A stretch of 64,000 nt of DNA from a virus. A program made the position numbers and the translations under genes. The DNA is taken from IMG/VR virus record IMGVR_UViG_3300017963_000029, positions 18,688 to 82,687 of that record. One strand, 5' to 3'. The notes beneath the pieces are model-generated. The model saw only the letters and a list, made by a program, of their open reading frames with translations, searched no databases and was not told where the DNA came from. Positions 10,422-61,954 of this stretch are shown here, one piece after another (position 1 is the first letter of the stretch; every line of letters starts with the position of its first letter).

Positions 10422-11054
10422 TTACAGTCCATGTTCCTGCCGCCACTCCTCGCACGAGCCCCACGGGATGCACTGGTAAGGTGTCGCCGGATGCCCGGGT
10501 AATCTGGGTGTCGTGGTGAGATCGACGTGGCTACATTCCTCTCCTGCCGCCGCTTTCGTCTCCGAACAGTAGTGCAACGACCCCGTGAAAGCGGTCTGGA
10601 AACACCAGTACCCGTCCGGACAATCCCCCTGATCGACGCCGACGCACTCCCGGCACTGGGCCTCTTCTTCCTGCGCGTCCGGTCCCGCATCCGGTCCCGC
10701 ATCCTCGACCGCCGCGTCCCCGGCATCGGTCCCGCCGTCCGAGCCCGCATCCGGTAGATCAGCGTCTCTCCCCCCGTCGAGCTCGTGTTCTCCGCCGGTA
10801 CCACCGGCTCCCCCGGTCCCGCCGGCGGTACCCGCGGTGGAGGAATCGCCGCGCTCGATCGCCGCGTCCTCTCCACCGTTGCCGCCGCCCTCCCCGGCCC
10901 CGCCGGCACCACCGGTGGCACCATCGTCGCGCGCGACCGCCCCATCCTCCATCCCCGCATCGTCGGTGCCGCCATCCGGGTGTGGACCCACGAAGATCGG
11001 CCCGTGCGAGCACGCCGCCAGGGCGACCACCATCACCACCATTTTTACCCTCAT
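10422..11054 (-). CDS. Myxococcota-style lipoprotein with low-complexity and Cys-rich regions
   Basis: A 210-residue protein starting at an ATG behind CCGGAGGGTC. The N-terminus MRVKMVVMVVALAACS is a lipoprotein signal: basic start, hydrophobic core, lipobox with the acylated cysteine at residue 15. Residues 25-130 are low-complexity Gly/Ala/Thr and Asp-Ala-Gly-Pro runs, and the last 70 residues hold eight cysteines (CRECVGVDQGDCPDGYWC and later) in a small disulfide-type domain. This layout is characteristic of secreted lipoproteins of Myxococcota. It would be anchored in the outer membrane of the infected cell. A role in superinfection exclusion or host-surface change is a guess. Confidence 0.75.
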   Translation of the reverse strand: MRVKMVVMVVALAACSHGPIFVGPHPDGGTDDAGMEDGAVARDDGATGGAGGAGEGGGNGGEDAAIERGDSSTAGTAGGTGGAGGTGGEHELDGGRDADLPDAGSDGGTDAGDAAVEDAGPDAGPDAQEEEAQCRECVGVDQGDCPDGYWCFQTAFTGSLHYCSETKAAAGEECSHVDLTTTPRLPGHPATPYQCIPWGSCEEWRQEHGL

Positions 11055-11139
11055 TTTGACCCTCCGGTTTTCAACATTACTGTAAATTAAGGCTCTACTT
11101 AAGACGGACTCTGGTTTTTGAGCACCTATTCACCATTTA

Positions 11140-11500
11140 CGTGCCGCATGTGCCGCGAAACCCATGTAAGTATTTTCTTACGTGCCGCAAGTGCCACGCC
11201 GCGGCACTTGCGCGGCACTTGCGCGGCACTTGCGCGGCAGGTCTTTATTTTGTAATAACATACGTTTATCTAATTGCGGCACATGCGGCACATCAATTTC
11301 AGCTCTTCACAAAATTTGATCTTCGAAATTCAATTTAAATTACCGTGTATAAGGAACGTGCCGCATGTGTCGCAATTAGATAACCTAGTGAAATTGTTGT
11401 AGAAGTACCTGCCGCGCAAGTGCCGCGCAAGTGCCGCGCAAGTGCCGCGGGCACACAAACGTATTAACGATGTATACATGCCGCAAGTGCCGCGGGCAGC
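11140..11500. repeat. Inverted array of GCCGC-rich repeats around an AT-rich core; candidate replication origin
   Basis: The right half has tandem 11-base units CAAGTGCCGCG near 11410-11450; the left half has about four copies of the reverse complement near 11201-11240. Inner arms at 11266-11291 and 11358-11383 are reverse complements with one mismatch (26 bases), and the distance from each inner arm to its array is the same 25 bases. The dyad centre is near 11324, in an AT-rich stretch with many A/T runs. Outer single copies lie at 11140-11157, 11180-11200 and 11478-11500. There is no gene here. Iterons plus an AT-rich unwinding zone beside a primase-helicase gene fit an origin; an operator array is the alternative. 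Confidence 0.7.
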
Positions 11501-11507
11501 TTTAAAT

Positions 11508-13985
11508 TCAGTTGAGCTTGAAATCTCCGGGGTCATTCGGATCCCCTTGCTGGGCCTTTATGAGACGGGCCTTCGGAGATGATTCGTGCCTCTCCTGCGG
11601 GGTCTTGATCCGGAGTCCGAGAAAGCCTCTGACGCCACTGTGCAGCTTGTGGTCCGGGTATCGCTTGCGCATGGCGACGTAGAACCTCTTGCGCTGATGG
11701 AAGACCTTATTACGGCTGTCCTCCGCGTACTCGAGGTAGGCCGCCCAGGCGATGTCGCGCGGTACGAAAAGCTCCGGACCCTCGATGAACCACTGGTCGA
11801 TGAAGGGCTGCAGAGGGTCCTGCTCGCGGCGGTAGTCTTCGGTCGCCATCTCCACCGCCTCCGGGGTGGGAAGACCTTTCTCGCGCCACAGGACGGCCTC
11901 GCGCGCGATGCGGGTCCAGATGCCCGGGATCTCCTGGCGGAGCTTCTGAGGGAGATCTCGGTCCTCCTTGCCGCGAAACGAGGCGTTCCACGGGATGACC
12001 TTGAGCCGGCGCCAGATGCCCTCGTCGGTACCGCGGACGTGCGGCAGCTGGTTGGCGCTCACCCAGAGTTGATATTCGGGCACGTAGGTCCACTCGTCCT
12101 CGCGCATCTTCCTGCCGGTGATGGGGTCGCTGCCGGTGAGTTCCTTGATCAGCGACTCCGCGAGCGCCTTCCCCTCCTCCACCTCCTGGGCGGTCACGAG
12201 CCTCTTGCCGAAGAACGACATCCGCCACGTCTCGTGCTTCTCGGCACCCTTGTTGGTGAGCAGATTTTTGCTGTTGGCGGCGAAGGCGTAACCGCCGATA
12301 CCAATGCCGAAAGCCTCGATGATAGCGTTCATGAAGGTGGTCTTACCGTTGGCGCCTTCACCGATGTTGAGGACCAGGATCTGCTCCGTGGTCACCCCTA
12401 CGGCGGTGTAGCCGAGCAAGCGCCAGATAAAATCCACCAGACCGCGGTTACCCTGCATGCACTCGGACAGGAATCGGTCGAAGGTCGGGCAGGTGGCATT
12501 CGGGTCGAACTTGTGCGGCGCGAGGCGCGTGATGTAGTCCTTGCGGTTGTGCTCGCGCAGCTGCCCGGTGCGAAGGTCGAGCGTACCATTCAGGAAGTTG
12601 AACACCCACGGATCCCTGTTCAGCTGGGTATATGAAATGAGAATGTCTCGGTCGGTGGCGGCGAGAGCGGCGCCGGCCGAGACCTTGTTGCGCGTCTCGC
12701 TCTGCTTGGCGAACTTCAGGATCTCCTCGATTATTTTGTCGAGCCGTTTGTACTTCTCCTCCGCCAGGTCCATTACTTCCGGACTGACGTTAGGATCTTC
12801 ATTTAATTTTTCAAACTCTTTTTTGGCGATCCACCGGTCGTGTCGAAATGCGTCAGCCTCTTCCGGGATGGAGCGCACGGTTTCTTTCATGTGCTCCTGG
12901 ACCAGCGCGCGGCCGGCCTCGAGGTTCCAGAAGGCCCCCTCCCAAACCAACCACCTCTGCCACGTCTCCTCCCATGCCAGATCTTTCTTGTGCCGATCGA
13001 GCAGCCGCTCTCCGAGCCCCATTTCGGTCAGGGGTCGGCTCTTTATCTCGTCGATCTTCGGCGGGTACCAGGGGCGCCCCTTGCCGTCCTCGATGGCACC
13101 CTCCACCTCCTCGATGGCTTTTTCGCGGTACGCCGGCACCGCCGGGTCGTGGGTGTTGCGGTTGTAGCGGTAGTCGAGCGCCGCGATGACCATCTCCCGC
13201 ACCCGTTTCTCTTCGATGAGGTGGGGGATGCCGCGAGCGATACCAAAAACGCCATGGCTCTTCAGGTCGTAGAGCTCGCCGGGGAAGGGTCGGTCGCGTA
13301 TCTCGTCGCAGAGATTATGTAATTTGGCGTCCCAGTAGTCTCGCAGGCCCTCTGTTATCTCGCCGCGGTCTTCCTCCGACAGGCTTTCCTCGTAGTTGTC
13401 GAGCGGTTTTTCTTTCATCCCTTCCGGGAGGGGCAGGCCGAGGACCATGTCCACGCCCAGCCCGGGGCCATCTTCACCGGAAACGCTGTATCGCGCCGGG
13501 TCACCACCGGGCTGGTAGAACATGTGGCAGGGGTCGGCGCACTTCTCGTCCGCGATGCCGTTCAGGCCGAAGTAGTACAGCGCCCGCACAAAGAACGCCG
13601 GCCACTCGGTGATGTCGACGGACCGGGATAACTTCACGATAATGCGGACTTTCAGCTGTCCCTGCGGCTCGTGGCTGAAGCTCGTATAGAGGATGTAGCC
13701 GTACTGTGCCACCTGCTTGAGCGTGGGCTCCAGATCTTTCCAGGTACCCTTGTCGACGTCGAACACCAGAAAGTGGTTGCGCAGGACGTTTACCGCGCAA
13801 CGCCGGACGCCGGCTTCGGCGTACTCCGCCGACATGAAAAGTGGAAGTTGTTCCTTATATTCCGCCGGTATGAATGTGTCTTTCTTGAGGAATTTCTCTA
13901 CCAGCGCGCCGAAGTCAGGCAGCGTTACCTGGTAGTTGACGAATCTGGAGTTGGAGACACAGGCACAACCGGAGAAAATTATCAC
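11508..13985 (-). CDS. Primase-helicase: PrimPol (AEP-like) N-terminus with D5/SF3 helicase
   Basis: An 825-residue protein starting at GTG 13985 behind GGGGAG. The N-terminal third looks like an archaeo-eukaryotic primase: FDVD (residues 75-78) as the metal-binding motif, SFSH (102-105) and an arginine soon after. The centre resembles the D5_N region of P4-type primases. From about residue 430 it reads WVFNFLNGTLDLRTG and then a superfamily 3 helicase with Walker A GEGANGKTTF near residue 545 and downstream ELTGSDPITGRKM and WVSANQLPHV. Such proteins load at origins, unwind DNA and prime synthesis. The repeat array lies immediately downstream of the gene. Confidence 0.85.
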   Translation of the reverse strand: MIIFSGCACVSNSRFVNYQVTLPDFGALVEKFLKKDTFIPAEYKEQLPLFMSAEYAEAGVRRCAVNVLRNHFLVFDVDKGTWKDLEPTLKQVAQYGYILYTSFSHEPQGQLKVRIIVKLSRSVDITEWPAFFVRALYYFGLNGIADEKCADPCHMFYQPGGDPARYSVSGEDGPGLGVDMVLGLPLPEGMKEKPLDNYEESLSEEDRGEITEGLRDYWDAKLHNLCDEIRDRPFPGELYDLKSHGVFGIARGIPHLIEEKRVREMVIAALDYRYNRNTHDPAVPAYREKAIEEVEGAIEDGKGRPWYPPKIDEIKSRPLTEMGLGERLLDRHKKDLAWEETWQRWLVWEGAFWNLEAGRALVQEHMKETVRSIPEEADAFRHDRWIAKKEFEKLNEDPNVSPEVMDLAEEKYKRLDKIIEEILKFAKQSETRNKVSAGAALAATDRDILISYTQLNRDPWVFNFLNGTLDLRTGQLREHNRKDYITRLAPHKFDPNATCPTFDRFLSECMQGNRGLVDFIWRLLGYTAVGVTTEQILVLNIGEGANGKTTFMNAIIEAFGIGIGGYAFAANSKNLLTNKGAEKHETWRMSFFGKRLVTAQEVEEGKALAESLIKELTGSDPITGRKMREDEWTYVPEYQLWVSANQLPHVRGTDEGIWRRLKVIPWNASFRGKEDRDLPQKLRQEIPGIWTRIAREAVLWREKGLPTPEAVEMATEDYRREQDPLQPFIDQWFIEGPELFVPRDIAWAAYLEYAEDSRNKVFHQRKRFYVAMRKRYPDHKLHSGVRGFLGLRIKTPQERHESSPKARLIKAQQGDPNDPGDFKLN

Positions 13986-22230: not shown

Positions 22231-22441
22231 GTCGGGGTGTTTGTCCAGAGTGTACGAGGACGAGCCCGTGTTCGTTATCAGGGCCGCGGACAAGTGCGCC
22301 CCTTACATGGTGACTGTGTGGGGTCTTTTTGCGCAGTTGATGGGCGCTGATCCCGAAAAAATAGTGGGGTCCATGAAGGCGATGGTTCGTATGCAGAAGT
22401 GGCAGAAGGACAATCCCGACAAGGTGAAGGTACCGGACTGA
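22205..22441 (+). CDS. Unknown small protein
   Basis: A 78-residue protein starting at ATG 22205 within the acidic tail codons of the previous gene. It reads as one strand section (EPVFVIRAADKCAPYMVTVW) then helices. Overlaps the next gene by TGATG. This type of short protein (a strand, then helices with a conserved KCAP) is familiar from phage replication clusters but has no known role. Confidence 0.6.
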   Translation: MATRQEEIESGCLSRVYEDEPVFVIRAADKCAPYMVTVWGLFAQLMGADPEKIVGSMKAMVRMQKWQKDNPDKVKVPD

Positions 22442-23103
22442 TGAACAAGATCTTCTGTATAGGACACTTCAAGACCGGGACCACGAGCTACTCGATGGCC
22501 ATGCGGATGCTCGGTTTCCGGGACATCCACTTCCCCCTCAAGTACGCGGAGCGCCTGCAGGAGACAGGGGACGTGTACTGGGATGACCGGGAGTGGGACT
22601 CCATGAGCAACATCAACGAGGTCGAGTACGACCGGTGTGACCGGGTGTATCCGGACAGCAAGTTCGTGTTGACGACCCGGGTTGTTGATAGTTGGTTGGT
22701 TTCTATCCAGAAACACATGGCGACGAAGTGGCCCCCGCGGCTCAAGAAGTTGTTGGATTGGCGCTCGGAGGTCGTCTTCGGGGTTCCCTGCGAGTTGGAG
22801 GCGTTTGACGAGGAGCATTTTCGAAAAAGATATATCGAGCACTATGAAGGTGTGCTCGATTATTTCAGAGGGCGAGAGGAGCAGCTGCTCGTGCTTTTCC
22901 TCGAGTCCAATATGAAGATGGAATCGCTCGCCACCTTCCTGGGCAAGGGGATTCCCTACCCCCGGATGAACGTTTCACCTGGTCCGGTCGCCGGCATGGA
23001 GTGCCCGGGGATCCCGACGTTGGTCGCCGGGGGCTTGAAACGGACGGTTGATTACGACGAAAAGACCGTGTTCCTGCAGTTCGAGGAACCGGTGAAGTGG
23101 TGA
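22441..23103 (+). CDS. Sulfotransferase-like protein
   Basis: A 220-residue protein with IGHFKTGTTSYSMAMRMLG near the N-terminus, the 5-phosphosulfate loop of PAPS-dependent sulfotransferases (KTGTTS), followed by a SKFVLTTRVVDSWLVSI strand-helix that matches the 3-phosphate-binding region, and a C-terminal YRVLDYFR-like helix. It should bind PAPS and may transfer sulfate to a sugar, lipid or small molecule. Finding it between replication genes is unusual; modification of the host surface or of DNA bases are possibilities but not supported directly. Confidence 0.65.
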   Translation: MNKIFCIGHFKTGTTSYSMAMRMLGFRDIHFPLKYAERLQETGDVYWDDREWDSMSNINEVEYDRCDRVYPDSKFVLTTRVVDSWLVSIQKHMATKWPPRLKKLLDWRSEVVFGVPCELEAFDEEHFRKRYIEHYEGVLDYFRGREEQLLVLFLESNMKMESLATFLGKGIPYPRMNVSPGPVAGMECPGIPTLVAGGLKRTVDYDEKTVFLQFEEPVKW

Positions 23104-53359: not shown

Positions 53360-53548
53360 TCAGCGGCACACGGCCCGGACAAACGGCTTCTTGATGACGC
53401 GTCCGGATCTGCTCCGCTTCGGTCTCTGCCCCTGGCAGGCCCACCCGCGGCCAGCGCCCCGGGTAGAGATTCTTTTACTGCCGGCCGGACACCCGCACTT
53501 GGACCAATCCTTTTTCGGGTGCCTCTTGTGCCGCTTTTTAGCAGCCAC
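53360..53548 (-). CDS. Very basic Cys-containing small protein, pair 2 member 1
   Basis: GTG 53548 after ACGGAGGAATATC. The 62-residue protein: KKRHKRHPKKDWSKCGCPAG, GAGRGWACQGQRPKRSRS and KKPFVRAVCR. CGCP-GSKR-ST-G-GRGW-C-RPK and FVRAVC also occur in the 53605 gene, so the two are duplicates. Rich in Lys/Arg with four cysteines. DNA-condensing or metal-binding virion part is the likely role. Confidence 0.65.
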   Translation of the reverse strand: MAAKKRHKRHPKKDWSKCGCPAGSKRISTRGAGRGWACQGQRPKRSRSGRVIKKPFVRAVCR

Positions 53549-53604
53549 GATATTCCTCCGTAATTACGGGTCTATGCTACTTGAAACTCGATACCACGGA
53601 GGTA

Positions 53605-53823
53605 CTACCAGCAGACGGCCCGGACGAACGGCTTCTTGACCAGCTGGGTCTTTCCCCGACGGGAGCCCTTCTTGATCTTGAACCGCTTCGGCCTGTTGCT
53701 CTGGCAGGCCCAGCCGCGCCCGCGACCACCGGTTCTGACGCGCTTGGAACCGTGGGGACAACCGCAATCGGCCCACCGCTGGCGCTTGCGGTGGTTGGTG
53801 GAAGCTCGCTTTCGTCGTGGCAT
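53605..53823 (-). CDS. Very basic Cys-containing small protein, pair 2 member 2
   Basis: ATG 53823 after GGAGGTAGAGAC. The 72-residue protein shares CGCP-GSKRV-TGGRGRGWACQ, RPKR and KKPFVRAVC with the 53360 gene. Like it, half of its residues are basic or cysteine. The two pairs (45.7/45.9 kb and 53.4/53.6 kb) differ in sequence but share the idea of basic segments with regular cysteines. Confidence 0.65.
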   Translation of the reverse strand: MPRRKRASTNHRKRQRWADCGCPHGSKRVRTGGRGRGWACQSNRPKRFKIKKGSRRGKTQLVKKPFVRAVCW

Positions 53824-53921
53824 GTCTCTACCTCCGTCACCCAGTATACCCGGGAGGGTTCAGATGGTCGATAGTATGATTATTTGAAGAAAAAACTCAA
53901 CATCCGTGCCGATCTCAGCCT

Positions 53922-54092
53922 TTAATTACGTGTTCGACGAACATCTGCACGTTGTTCCCGCTCCGACAACCGGGAGCGCCTCTCCTGCCAGGTCTGGTCC
54001 TTCTCGCGACCCTTACGCCCGTTGCTCTTGTGCGGTTTGCACAGCAGGCAACCAGCGCGCGTATCCTTTGGTCGTCGGCGCTTGTGGTTCAT
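53922..54092 (-). CDS. Small basic protein with CLLCKPHK motif
   Basis: ATG 54092 overlaps the stop of the gene before it (ATGA). The 56-residue product, missed by usual length cut-offs, reads MNHKRRRPKDTRAGCLLCKP then HKSNGRKGREKDQT and a charged helix. CLLCKP(H/W)K-NG is a motif I recognise from many short phage and bacterial proteins. The two cysteines with His may bind zinc. Function unknown. Confidence 0.55.
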   Translation of the reverse strand: MNHKRRRPKDTRAGCLLCKPHKSNGRKGREKDQTWQERRSRLSEREQRADVRRTRN

Positions 54093-54274
54093 GTCGTACT
54101 TACCAGATAAGGTCCTCGAGGATTTCTGACGTCCCTCTTTACTCGATGCCGATCACGTATTTTATCCAGGCAGCCTTCGCAGTACCTCTTACTTCTCCCT
54201 CTCGGTTTTCCACAATCCACGCAGCTGCCCTCGCGCAGCTTCTTTTGCTTCCACTTCCATTGTCGGCTGGTCAT
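54089..54274 (-). CDS. Small zinc-finger protein next to the tmRNA
   Basis: A 61-residue protein, starting two bases after the tmRNA 3 prime end. GSCVDCGKPRGRSKRYCEGC is a four-cysteine finger, with a basic helix after it (LDKIRDRHRVKRDVRNP). Similar short fingers are common in phages and may bind RNA or DNA. It may be made from the same transcript as the tmRNA. Confidence 0.6.
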   Translation of the reverse strand: MTSRQWKWKQKKLREGSCVDCGKPRGRSKRYCEGCLDKIRDRHRVKRDVRNPRGPYLVSTT

Positions 54275-54276
54275 CT

Positions 54277-54645
54277 TGGTGGAGCCGCCGGGAGTCGAAC
54301 CCGGGTCCAGAAAAGCTCAAAGGCTGCGTCTACGTGCGTGTCTGCTTTTTCGTGTTACCGATGGTAGCAGCGACCAGGGGGCGGCCCGGAGACCACGTCC
54401 ACCACGACCGAAGATCTTGGCTCAAGGCCCGGTCGAACTCCTTGAGTTGCCACCGGCTGATCCACGCCCCGTCGCGAGCCGCCGGCTCTCTCGCGGGGGA
54501 CGCCTAGGCCGCGAGGTCGAGCTTCGCGGCTTCGGAGTTGCCGTTATCGTTGGCGTTTGTGGTTTGGTAACCTTAGTACCCGGGGGTTACCAGCCGGGAC
54601 ACGCAACAGCGTATCTTACTTCCCTGTCGAAACCTTTTCGGCCCC
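54277..54645 (-). ncRNA. ssrA: tmRNA (transfer-messenger RNA)
   Basis: The 369-base minus-strand RNA begins GGGGCCG and ends CGGCTCC-ACCA; these ends pair as a seven-base acceptor stem (one G-U). The 5 prime part continues with GGTTTCGACAGGGA, the usual tmRNA D-like start, and the 3 prime part has the T-arm CCCGGGTTCGACTCCCGG. CCA is encoded. An open tag runs from GCC at 54554 to TAG at 54504: ANDNGNSEAAKLDLAA, starting AND as in most bacteria and ending LAA, the ClpXP degron. It rescues stalled ribosomes. Placement inside the viral minus operon, with zinc-finger genes on its 3 prime side, shows that it is viral. Confidence 0.9.
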
Positions 54646-54656
54646 TTCTCCTTTCT

Positions 54657-55229
54657 TCACCTCTCCCACCTCGTGCTGTAATGACGTGAAGGCGTCGATT
54701 TGGCGAAACGCATCATGTACCAGTGGACGATCGCCAGGTACATCGCTGTTAGATCCTTTTTCTCGACGGAGTCGCGGATACTCCCCACCACCGAGTCGAC
54801 GATATTAGAAGCGCCGGCCTGCATGAACGGCTCCCACTCTTCGATATGCAAATTCGACTTGTTGACCGCCACGATTTCCGCGAAGGCATACGAGACTACC
54901 TCGCTTATACGGCGGAGATCCGGACACCGCCCTGCGACTTTTTCGAACGGACGTATCCGGGCCTCGAGAGAAGGCACGCGCTTGTTCATCAGCTGGCTCA
55001 AGAAGCCGTCGACAATGGACACCCACATGAACAACATCTGGCGCTCCAGATGGAGATCCCCCTCCAGGTTGAGGCGATCCATCTCGGACAAAACGTGGTC
55101 CCGTCCTTTCTCGAGGAGGAGTTCCCTCCATTTCGAAACGGGCAGTTTGCCGTAGTGAACATCCTCTATTTCCATGAAGCAGAGATCGACGAGCTCTTCA
55201 ATGAGGGCGACTCTTTTTCTCTTGGTCAT
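54657..55229 (-). CDS. Unknown helical protein upstream of the tmRNA
   Basis: A 190-residue helical protein (MTKRKRVALIEELVDLCFME, LTAMYLAIVHWYMMRFAKS). It ends 12 bases before the tmRNA 5 prime end, so RNase P processing of a joint transcript is expected. Several Trp/Met-rich helices, no membrane span long enough to be certain. Function unknown. Confidence 0.6.
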   Translation of the reverse strand: MTKRKRVALIEELVDLCFMEIEDVHYGKLPVSKWRELLLEKGRDHVLSEMDRLNLEGDLHLERQMLFMWVSIVDGFLSQLMNKRVPSLEARIRPFEKVAGRCPDLRRISEVVSYAFAEIVAVNKSNLHIEEWEPFMQAGASNIVDSVVGSIRDSVEKKDLTAMYLAIVHWYMMRFAKSTPSRHYSTRWER

Positions 55230-58669: not shown

Positions 58670-61600
58670 ATGCTCATCGCAGAACACGACGACGGGACGG
58701 AAACCCGTGAAGCCACCATCTCCTCCATACGCTGGGAGAAAGCGGGTCGAGCGTGGAAGCTGTTGGCCATGTCCAACGGCGAAACCTGGAAAGGGCAGGT
58801 AGGAGACGTGCTCCCCGGTACCCTGCTCCGCGCCCGCGGCAAGGAGGTCACCAACGAGTATGGCACGGCCTTCGAGGTGCAGGAGGTAAAGAAGTCAGTG
58901 GTGGACACCGCCAGCGGGCTGGCCGCATGGTTGGCCTACCGCCTTCCCCAGGTGGGAGCGGAACGGGCTGAGAGGCTCGTAGACCTCTTCGGGGACGATC
59001 TCCTGAACACCATCGAGAACAACCCCCAACAGCTGACCCGGGTGAGCGGCATCACCCCGGAGCGGGCCCAGCAGATCTCGAAAATCTACCTCAACTACAA
59101 ACTCGAGCAGCAGCTCGTCACCCGGCTGGTCGACGCCGGCCTGAAGATGGGGCTGGCCATGAAGGCCTACAAGGAGTACGGCGAGCACCTGCAAGACGTT
59201 CTGAAGGCCGACCCCTACACCTTGATGTACGTCGAGGGCATCACCTTCGCCAATCTGGACCCGGTGTGCCTGAACCTCGGCATCAACGAGAAGGACCACC
59301 GCCGGGTCCGGGCCTACGCCGTGTTTCTGCTGCTCAAAGAACTGAACGAGGGCCACTGCTACCTGCCGCGCCTGGAGTTGCTGGGCCACATCTCCAAGTG
59401 GGGCTTCTCCTACCAGGAGGCCGCAGACATCCTCGCATCCTCCGACCGCCTGGTCCTGCGCGAGAACGAGATCTTGCTGTCCGAGATCGATCTGGCCGAA
59501 GTTATCGTTACCCGACGCGTTATTTATATGCTCGAGCGCCCTAATCTCGTCCTCAAGCGCGAACCCGAGATCCCCGACTGGTACGACCCGGAGCAGAAAG
59601 CGGCCATTCTAGGCCTGATGACAGCTCCCATCAGCATCATGACCGGAGGCCCAGGTACGGGAAAGACAACATGCTTGCTGGCCGCCATGGACGCCATGGA
59701 AGCCCGCGGCGAGCTCATCAAGTGCGCCGCCCCCACCGGGAAGGCAGCGAAGCGGATGACGGAGGTGTGTGGGCGCGAGGCTACCACCATCCACCGGCTG
59801 CTGGGCTGGAAGCCCGACGGCTGGGAGCACACCTCCACCAACCCGCTCGAGGCTAACGTTGTGGTGATCGACGAGGCTTCCATGGTCGACATCCAGCTGG
59901 CGGCATCTCTGTTGGACGCTATCGGCAACGCCCGCCTCATCATCGTCGGTGACAGCGACCAGCTGCCTCCGGTGGGACCGGGACAACCTCTTTTCGATCT
60001 ACTCGAATCCGCAACCATCCCCACCTTCCGGTTGATGACGGTCCACCGCCAGGCCGGCGACTCCTGGGTCTGCGACAACGCCTACAAGATCATCGAAGGC
60101 GAGAAACCGGATCTGCGCGAGACCCCGGACTTCGAGTTTGGGCAGTTCGAGGAGAGCGAGGCCATCGTGCAGGTGGCCATTCATCTGTCCAAGAAGTTCC
60201 CCGACATCCAGATCCTGACCCCCGAGCACAAGAAGGGTGCCGGGACGGTGAACCTGAACCTCGCCATCCAGGCTGCGCTCAACCCCCACGACGAATTGGA
60301 CGATCACATATCGGCCAACAACTATCGCATCTTCGAGGGCGACAAGGTGTTGTACACCAAGAACAACAAGGACAACGGGCTCGTGAACGGAGACATCGGC
60401 TACGTCCGACAAGTCAACGTCAGGGGTGTCGACACCCTGGCGTATGTCGAGTTCGACGGCCTTTACGACGAGAACCACCCCTTCGGGTGGTTTCTGTTGA
60501 AAGGCCGCGCGGACCTGGAGCCCCTGACGTTGGCCTACGCCATGACGGTCCACAAATGTGTGACTTCTGACACTCTGGTTGGACTACAACGACACGGTGT
60601 AGTGACCATGGAAGAACTGGTCCATGAAAACTATACCGATAAAATACAAACTACCAAAGGTTTTCTTCCTTTTGAAAATGCTTTTCTTTCCGCCGAAAAA
60701 CGCCCTTGCATAAAGATAACAACAAAAGATGGTTACGAACTAACCGTTACTCCTGATCATAAGATGAAGGTGTGGGGAGGATATGGTTACACACTAAGAA
60801 AAACCGAAGATCTAAAAATAGGCCAATTCTTACGTCTGGCCCTTCACTGGGACAGCGGTCAAGTTCAAGAACTACCTCCTCTTCCTGCTGGAGACATTCG
60901 TTCAAAACGCCATCGAGTGCCTCGTTATCTTTTATCAGAAGCCGCCGAATTCTTCGGATTGATGGTAGCCGATGGGACACTGTACGCAAAAGGTTTTCGG
61001 TTAGCCAAACGTCATAAAGACGTCGTAGATAGATTCTGCAAACTATGTTCAAAACTCTTCCACAAAAAACCAAAACGCTGGTTCGAAAACGGAGCTTATT
61101 TTGCTGAAGTAAACTCCGTTCGCCTTGCCGACTGGCTTCGACTTATCGGAGGAATGAACCCTAACAAAAAAGAAATTCCTCAAGCTATTTTGAAATCCGC
61201 AAAAATGGAACAAGCGGATTTTCTTCGTGGTCTATTTGAAGACGGTACAGTAAATGCGGATGAAAAATGGCGGACCCTAGATCACATTGAATGGTCCACC
61301 AAATATGAAAAAATAACTCACCAAGTTCAAATACTTCTTTTGCGTTTTGGTATTATCTCTTCGCGCACTTGCCGAGATGGCCAATGGATCATCTACATCT
61401 ACGGTAAAAACGCCCAACGTTTTTTTAATCCTTATCAAAATACGCGAATAGGTTTTATAAATAAAACCAAAAACAGACGCCTTCAATACACCGCGGGGCG
61501 TGAACAAAACTACCTCATTCCCGTAGATCCATCTTCTTTCCATTGTGACACCTATACCGGTCAAAATGCCCGACAAAGAGGTTATATATCCAGAGCTACA

Positions 61601-61954
61601 GCTGAAGAACTAGGTAACTTTCAAGAGCAACTTAAATTTCATCACGACCGTATCGTCAAACTAGAAACTACCTACGATTACGTTGGGTGTGTTACCGTTC
61701 CTGAACATGGTCGTTTTCTTCAAAACGGATTCGACGGAGGAAACAGTCAAGGCTCGGAGTGGCCCTTCGTCCTCATCATCGCGGACAAGGTTCACTGGTC
61801 TCTTCGCCGGCAACTGCTTTATACTGCTGTTACACGCACGCACGACCGACTGGCCATCGTGGGGTCGGTCGAAGCAATCGAACGCGCCGTGAAACGTCCT
61901 CGCGACACCAACCGCCGCACCCTACTTCGACAGCGACTTACCGGAGGAGCATGA
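58670..61954 (+). CDS. RecD2-like SF1 helicase interrupted by an intein
   Basis: A 1094-residue frame; 698 residues remain without the intein. The N-terminal part has helix-hairpin-helix repeats (GAERAERLVDLFGDDLLNTI, then VSGITPERAQQI) as in RecD2. Helicase motifs: I MTGGPGTGKTT (about 324), Ia CAAPTGKAAKRM, II VVIDEASMVD (about 397), III VGDSDQLPPVG, IV-like FRLMTVHRQ, V AYAMTVHK/SQGSEWP, VI LLYTAVTRTHDRL. It should be a 5-3 helicase for recombination or replication. The intein splits motif V after Lys629, so splicing is required for activity. Confidence 0.9.
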   Translation: MLIAEHDDGTETREATISSIRWEKAGRAWKLLAMSNGETWKGQVGDVLPGTLLRARGKEVTNEYGTAFEVQEVKKSVVDTASGLAAWLAYRLPQVGAERAERLVDLFGDDLLNTIENNPQQLTRVSGITPERAQQISKIYLNYKLEQQLVTRLVDAGLKMGLAMKAYKEYGEHLQDVLKADPYTLMYVEGITFANLDPVCLNLGINEKDHRRVRAYAVFLLLKELNEGHCYLPRLELLGHISKWGFSYQEAADILASSDRLVLRENEILLSEIDLAEVIVTRRVIYMLERPNLVLKREPEIPDWYDPEQKAAILGLMTAPISIMTGGPGTGKTTCLLAAMDAMEARGELIKCAAPTGKAAKRMTEVCGREATTIHRLLGWKPDGWEHTSTNPLEANVVVIDEASMVDIQLAASLLDAIGNARLIIVGDSDQLPPVGPGQPLFDLLESATIPTFRLMTVHRQAGDSWVCDNAYKIIEGEKPDLRETPDFEFGQFEESEAIVQVAIHLSKKFPDIQILTPEHKKGAGTVNLNLAIQAALNPHDELDDHISANNYRIFEGDKVLYTKNNKDNGLVNGDIGYVRQVNVRGVDTLAYVEFDGLYDENHPFGWFLLKGRADLEPLTLAYAMTVHKCVTSDTLVGLQRHGVVTMEELVHENYTDKIQTTKGFLPFENAFLSAEKRPCIKITTKDGYELTVTPDHKMKVWGGYGYTLRKTEDLKIGQFLRLALHWDSGQVQELPPLPAGDIRSKRHRVPRYLLSEAAEFFGLMVADGTLYAKGFRLAKRHKDVVDRFCKLCSKLFHKKPKRWFENGAYFAEVNSVRLADWLRLIGGMNPNKKEIPQAILKSAKMEQADFLRGLFEDGTVNADEKWRTLDHIEWSTKYEKITHQVQILLLRFGIISSRTCRDGQWIIYIYGKNAQRFFNPYQNTRIGFINKTKNRRLQYTAGREQNYLIPVDPSSFHCDTYTGQNARQRGYISRATAEELGNFQEQLKFHHDRIVKLETTYDYVGCVTVPEHGRFLQNGFDGGNSQGSEWPFVLIIADKVHWSLRRQLLYTAVTRTHDRLAIVGSVEAIERAVKRPRDTNRRTLLRQRLTGGA
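60557..61744 (+). other. Intein with LAGLIDADG homing endonuclease in the RecD-like helicase
   Basis: 396 residues from Cys630 to Asn1025. Block A CVTSDTLVGL, block B GYELTVTPDHKMKV (the T-x-x-H), DOD blocks AEFFGLMVADGTLYA and FLRGLFEDGTVNAD, block F VGCVTVPEHGRFLQNGF, block G FDGGN followed by extein Ser. The usual His before the final Asn is a Gly here, which in other inteins slows but does not always stop splicing. The segment is AT-rich and ends sharply at both junctions, marking recent insertion. Its target would be the TVHK-SQG site of helicase motif V. Confidence 0.9.

Follow-up and report, generated by a model that had tools for sequence, protein, structure and literature searches.

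An intact one-piece tmRNA gene in a circular 82.6-kb genome of a virus or virus-like element, probably of Myxococcota

The window studied here (64,000 nt, part of an 82,687-base IMG/VR virus record) contains a stretch that was read in an earlier note as a complete viral tmRNA with an unusual tag, which raises the question of whether this locus is a genuine tmRNA gene, what kind of genome carries it and what it would do there. ARAGORN called a single tmRNA in the window, at 54277-54645 on the minus strand (the note had given no strand), with tag ANDNGNSEAAKLDLAA closed by a stop, and an Rfam cmscan against 4227 families returned RF00023 as the sole gathering-level match in the window (120.9 bits against a cut-off of 47, E=1.1e-46), the match covering the full length of the model (positions 1-374). 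The gene is of the one-piece type and is not permuted, as it matched RF00023 and not RF04321 or RF01849 and was called by ARAGORN without a permutation mark. The covariance-model check which the note had proposed was thus positive, and its coordinates, tag, acceptor, T-arm, CCA and stop are all borne out by ARAGORN, RF00023 and helix pairing. The parts of the gene and its immediate neighbours are as follows.

54657..55229, minus strand: upstream gene (ORF, same operon), 190 aa, with 11 nt between its stop and the tmRNA
54277..54645, minus strand: one-piece tmRNA (ssrA) gene, 369 nt (ARAGORN and RF00023)
54639..54645, minus strand: acceptor stem, 5' half, GGGGCCG, pairing with 54281-54287 (7/7)
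54600..54626, minus strand: long helix H2, 5' side, pairing with 54308-54340 (8/8, 5/5 and 5/5)
54566..54598, minus strand: pseudoknot PK1 (5/5 and 7/7 pairs)
54504..54554, minus strand: tag frame ANDNGNSEAAKLDLAA with stop TAG (ARAGORN coding part 92-142)
54552-54554, minus strand: resume codon GCC, with A at -4
54508..54530, minus strand: H5-like hairpin over the end of the tag frame (7/7 pairs)
54465..54502, minus strand: stem of the PK2 region (6/6 and 6/6 pairs)
54421..54456, minus strand: pseudoknot PK3 (5/5 and 7/7 pairs)
54362..54404, minus strand: first stem of the PK4 region (6/6 pairs)
54308..54340, minus strand: long helix H2, 3' side, partner of 54600..54626
54288..54305, minus strand: T-arm CCGGG-UUCGACU-CCCGG (sequence and RF00023)
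54281..54287, minus strand: acceptor stem, 3' half, CGGCUCC, after which come discriminator A and the encoded CCA (54277-54280)
54089..54274, minus strand: downstream gene, 61 aa, zinc-ribbon-like with two CxxC pairs, its ATG 2 nt past the encoded CCA

The tRNA-like domain comprises a 7-bp acceptor with a G3-U70 wobble, which is an alanine identity element, a T-arm, no anticodon arm and CCA; the long H2, the pseudoknots and a tag frame that follows PK1 with a resume codon and a stop are likewise present. All named helices are fully paired, although they were selected visually along the Rfam alignment, and the counts therefore state that the fold is possible throughout and are not a blind statistic. 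The tag frame closes with a single TAG. The retention of the paired helices, G3-U70, CCA, the A at -4 and the LAA end of the tag argues against decay. A pattern made from the 52-nt 5' end of this tmRNA gave no match in shuffled sequences. The locus is hence confirmed as a real, intact one-piece tmRNA gene. The completeness of its messenger-like domain also bears on the idea that the viral RNA is a decoy that would sequester SmpB and stop trans-translation in the host, a role proposed for phage DS6A and its TLD-only RNA (PMC4131195): a decoy would need neither messenger-like domain, tag frame nor pseudoknots, all of which are complete here, and this explanation is judged highly improbable.

The tmRNA is tightly set in an operon-like run of minus-strand genes, with gaps of 11 nt and 2 nt to its neighbours. 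The product of the 190-aa gene had no PHROG match and the 61-aa protein no Pfam match. No promoter-like or terminator-like sites marking the tmRNA itself were seen on its strand, and it is therefore probably processed from the operon transcript. Downstream, the minus-strand run at window positions 53360-54274 encodes small basic Cys-containing proteins (62, 72, 56 and 61 aa), the 62- and 72-aa members of which look like paralogues.

The record carries an exact 123-bp direct repeat at its ends (1-123 of contig bases 1-18,800 and 63878-64000 of the window), which indicates a complete circle, or a terminally redundant genome, of 82,564 bp. It encodes an integrase, a D5-type primase, a family-A DNA polymerase, a RecD2 helicase, a nuclease, a methyltransferase, RadC, and peptidoglycan-binding and CHAP proteins. 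An intein containing a LAGLIDADG domain splits the RecD2-like helicase (window 58670-61954, plus strand) at approximately residues 645-1021, and a Sulfotransferase-like protein (PF17784) is encoded at window positions 22441-23103 (plus strand). Neither SmpB (Pfam profile) nor tRNA genes were found in this genome, and the viral tmRNA must accordingly use host factors. No terminase, portal, HK97-type capsid or tail families were detected by PHROG or Pfam in the scanned proteins, among which small proteins were partly covered, and Terminase_6N is absent from three complete genomes, namely the carrier and two relatives. Two neighbouring conserved proteins of 186 and 220 aa, encoded on the minus strand at record positions 10597-11157 and 11255-11917, are common to the two complete viral relatives and to an element integrated in a Myxococcota genome. 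The predicted structures of the two neighbouring structural-like proteins are weak (mean pLDDT 56 and 67), and the jelly-roll-like beta matches of these models, none below E=0.001 in the PDB, are suggestive only; a structural-like protein of the carrier matched none of 50,697 phage and 72,556 plasmid records. These 82-102-kb circular genomes without a recognised terminase or tail gene, the carrier included, may by their gene content and weak models represent a tailless virus group or plasmid-like elements. The carrier is provisionally called viral on its IMG/VR class and its lysis-type and phage-type replication genes; nevertheless, the claim that this is a viral gene stands in the sense that the gene is part of a mobile genome, viral or virus-like (an 82,564-bp circle in an IMG/VR record), and not of a chromosome.

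Two related viral records share with the carrier, by alignment, the integrase (40%), structural-like proteins (54-64%), the helicase and the DNA polymerase, and both are closed by repeats at their ends (78 and 123 bp). The tmRNA is absent from both of these complete genomes and is thus dispensable in the group; it is also absent, as far as tested, from nine more records in which GP88 is the only shared protein. A 10.3-Mb Myxococcota genome, one of 284 sampled from this phylum, contains an integrated relative with these genes (integrase 39%, GP88 39% twice, helicase 42%, structural-like protein 54%). No tmRNA lies inside this relative; the sole full-length tmRNA of that genome sits elsewhere and has the tag ANDSTYALAA, and no tRNA-Phe att repeat was found near the integrated relative. 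When host phyla were compared for fit to the viral tmRNA, the comparison being between Myxococcota and Pseudomonadota only, the alignment score averaged 48.0 for the former (best 78.7, n=68) and 29.6 for the latter (best 52.5, n=30). Hosts already possess a tmRNA of their own: 116 of 141 Myxococcota genomes gave a match under strict filters. The integrated relative and the better alignment both uphold the Myxococcota host that had been proposed, and on these sequence comparisons the host of the carrier is probably a member of this phylum.

In a tree of 101 tmRNAs the viral tmRNA had a long branch (0.51) and no supported position, and this branch, together with the lack of a close host sequence, speaks against a recent copy from any sampled host. 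Exact 5'-end patterns found no match in viral and genome collections and a relaxed pattern matched three genomes; no second copy of the viral tmRNA was found, and single-sequence queries of viral contigs with the neighbour protein and the DNA polymerase returned nothing. The same locus in a host chromosome, which the note had named as refuting, was not encountered, as no host genome had an identical 5' end. The tmRNA is an accessory gene, either gained in the lineage of the carrier or lost in others. It might then be a host ssrA captured by recombination or imprecise excision and now neutral cargo, a reading with which its absence from relatives agrees; the carrier has an integrase, and mobile elements are known to integrate at ssrA (PMC3146451). 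Yet all checked helices are intact, the branch length of 0.51 and the lack of a near host relative do not fit a fresh capture from the sampled hosts, the gene is firmly embedded between same-strand genes and distant from the integrase, and it is whole where integration normally leaves a 3' fragment; we therefore regard neutral cargo as improbable. A remnant of an integration site in host ssrA, as a separate candidate, was rejected, the gene being whole and 24.8 kb from the integrase on the circle.

The tag had been called unusual on account of its 16 residues. This holds against typical hosts, in which 97 of 98 sampled tags have 9-15 residues (the remaining one, of 20, is an odd ARAGORN call), but not against the known range of bacterial tags, which is 8-35 residues (PMC2862035), or against other phage tags. 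Those of Kumao (31 residues) and of Azrael100, a Wildcatvirus (22), are, like that of the carrier, longer than usual host tags, and a 3'-TLD pattern, which fixes one acceptor type and biases the sample to it, recovered complete tmRNAs in 18 viral contigs, their tags comprising 13 different sequences of 10-30 residues. With phage tags of 10-31 residues in this comparison, the tag is long relative to hosts and not unusual for a phage. It begins with ANDN, a start common to 31 Myxococcota tags, and ends in LAA preceded by Asp at -4; host tags end in AA in 92 of 98 cases and in LAA in 63, and none of the 98 has Asp at -4.

These features allow the proposal that the virus keeps rescue but exchanges a host tag such as ANDNVELALAA for its own, which is longer and has Asp at -4; another protease or adaptor would then be engaged, sparing viral proteins or steering host proteins. 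In E. coli, ClpA contacts the residue before LAA and ClpX mainly LAA itself, which is counted in favour of this proposal together with the length of the tag, its Asp and the stranger tags predicted for other viral tmRNAs, for example 30 residues ending in EVTV. The LAA end, however, is the usual end of SsrA tags (PMC9382460) and is kept, the ANDN start is that of Myxococcota tags, and tags vary widely from species to species in any case (PMC2862035). The earlier suggestion that the host protease treats the tag differently is accordingly countered by the retained LAA and favoured by the differing spacer and Asp, and such a switch of tag is considered unlikely. Rather doubtful is the broader notion that viruses of this kind rewrite the degradation tag in infection, the carrier mildly, by a long spacer and Asp before LAA, and others further, with 30-residue EVTV tags. 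Three IMG/VR contigs (L169, L172 and L202) have a predicted 30-residue tag with a basic GKRKRSK stretch and the EVTV end, without AA, while AVEDTPEKQFSL is the predicted tag in L179, L190 and L198; these odd tags could be real tag changes or frame errors of ARAGORN.

The best explanation for the locus, which we consider probable, is that of an intact one-piece tmRNA of a circular 82.6-kb bacterial virus or virus-like element, likely of Myxococcota, that provides extra ribosome rescue with host factors. Host RNA-processing enzymes would cut the tmRNA from the operon transcript, host AlaRS would charge it with alanine, and host SmpB and EF-Tu would bring it, during infection, to ribosomes held up on broken transcripts of virus and host; ANDNGNSEAAKLDLAA would then be added and its LAA end would send the product to host ClpXP. 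The gain for the virus would lie in additional ribosome recycling during message degradation, with the exact tag being secondary. Counted against this reading are the two complete relatives that manage without the gene, the tmRNA which hosts already have, and the lack of a promoter-like or terminator-like site of its own. In phage lambda-immP22, plating is approximately 10,000-fold worse without tmRNA or SmpB, chiefly via ribosome rescue (PMC2862035); mycobacteriophage Wildcat expresses no lytic gene more highly than its tmRNA (PMC7474061), and for the tmRNA of Melnitz the upkeep of hijacked machinery or the recycling of host proteins has been proposed (PMC9004378). The suggested help in translating small overlapping genes finds no backing, as nothing links the viral tmRNA to such genes.

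Phage-encoded tmRNA is an already known kind of gene, and the remark that a few phages carry one is an understatement: 402 of 18,146 phage genomes encode it (PMC9004378), and one 3'-end pattern alone recovered the 18 viral contigs above. As in mycobacteriophages Bxz1, Wildcat and Kumao, Bacillus phage G and methylophage Melnitz, the gene is complete in the carrier, although these named phages have hosts of another phylum, and the tmRNA of Melnitz is two-piece (PMC9004378) in contrast to the one-piece form found here. The carrier contributes a phage tmRNA of intact structure; its genome is complete, yielded no SmpB and has relatives without a tmRNA against which it can be compared. To our knowledge, no phage tmRNA has been described from its probable host phylum, the Myxococcota. 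With the viral tags collected here one can test whether phage tmRNAs do no more than rescue ribosomes or also alter what is degraded, and more surprising leads adjoin this question, namely the virus group itself and the viral tmRNAs whose predicted tags lack an AA end.

The closest likeness is to the one-piece ssrA (RF00023) of the Myxococcota type: the TLD is nearly the same (GGACCCGGGTTCGACTCCCGG...CTCCACCA), the ANDN start and LAA end of the tag are shared, and the viral gene has 369 nt against 338-406 in sampled Myxococcota tmRNAs. It differs in the 16-residue tag with its DLAA end, in its location in a mobile genome and in the acceptor, GGGGCCG/CGGCUCC against the usual GGGGGCG/CGCCUCC, a compensated swap that few hosts have. 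The same GGGGCCG acceptor and TLD style occur in a Polyangiaceae-associated phage contig (L005/L174, IMG/VR, 79,030 bp), whose tmRNA nevertheless differs (277 nt, tag GNTQPQLRAA) and which shares almost no proteins with the carrier. That contig encodes a protein which, as read from its sequence, is tail-sheath-like, and the Polyangiaceae MAG that contains it also holds a normal chromosomal tmRNA, with tag ANDNALALAA, beside the short phage one.
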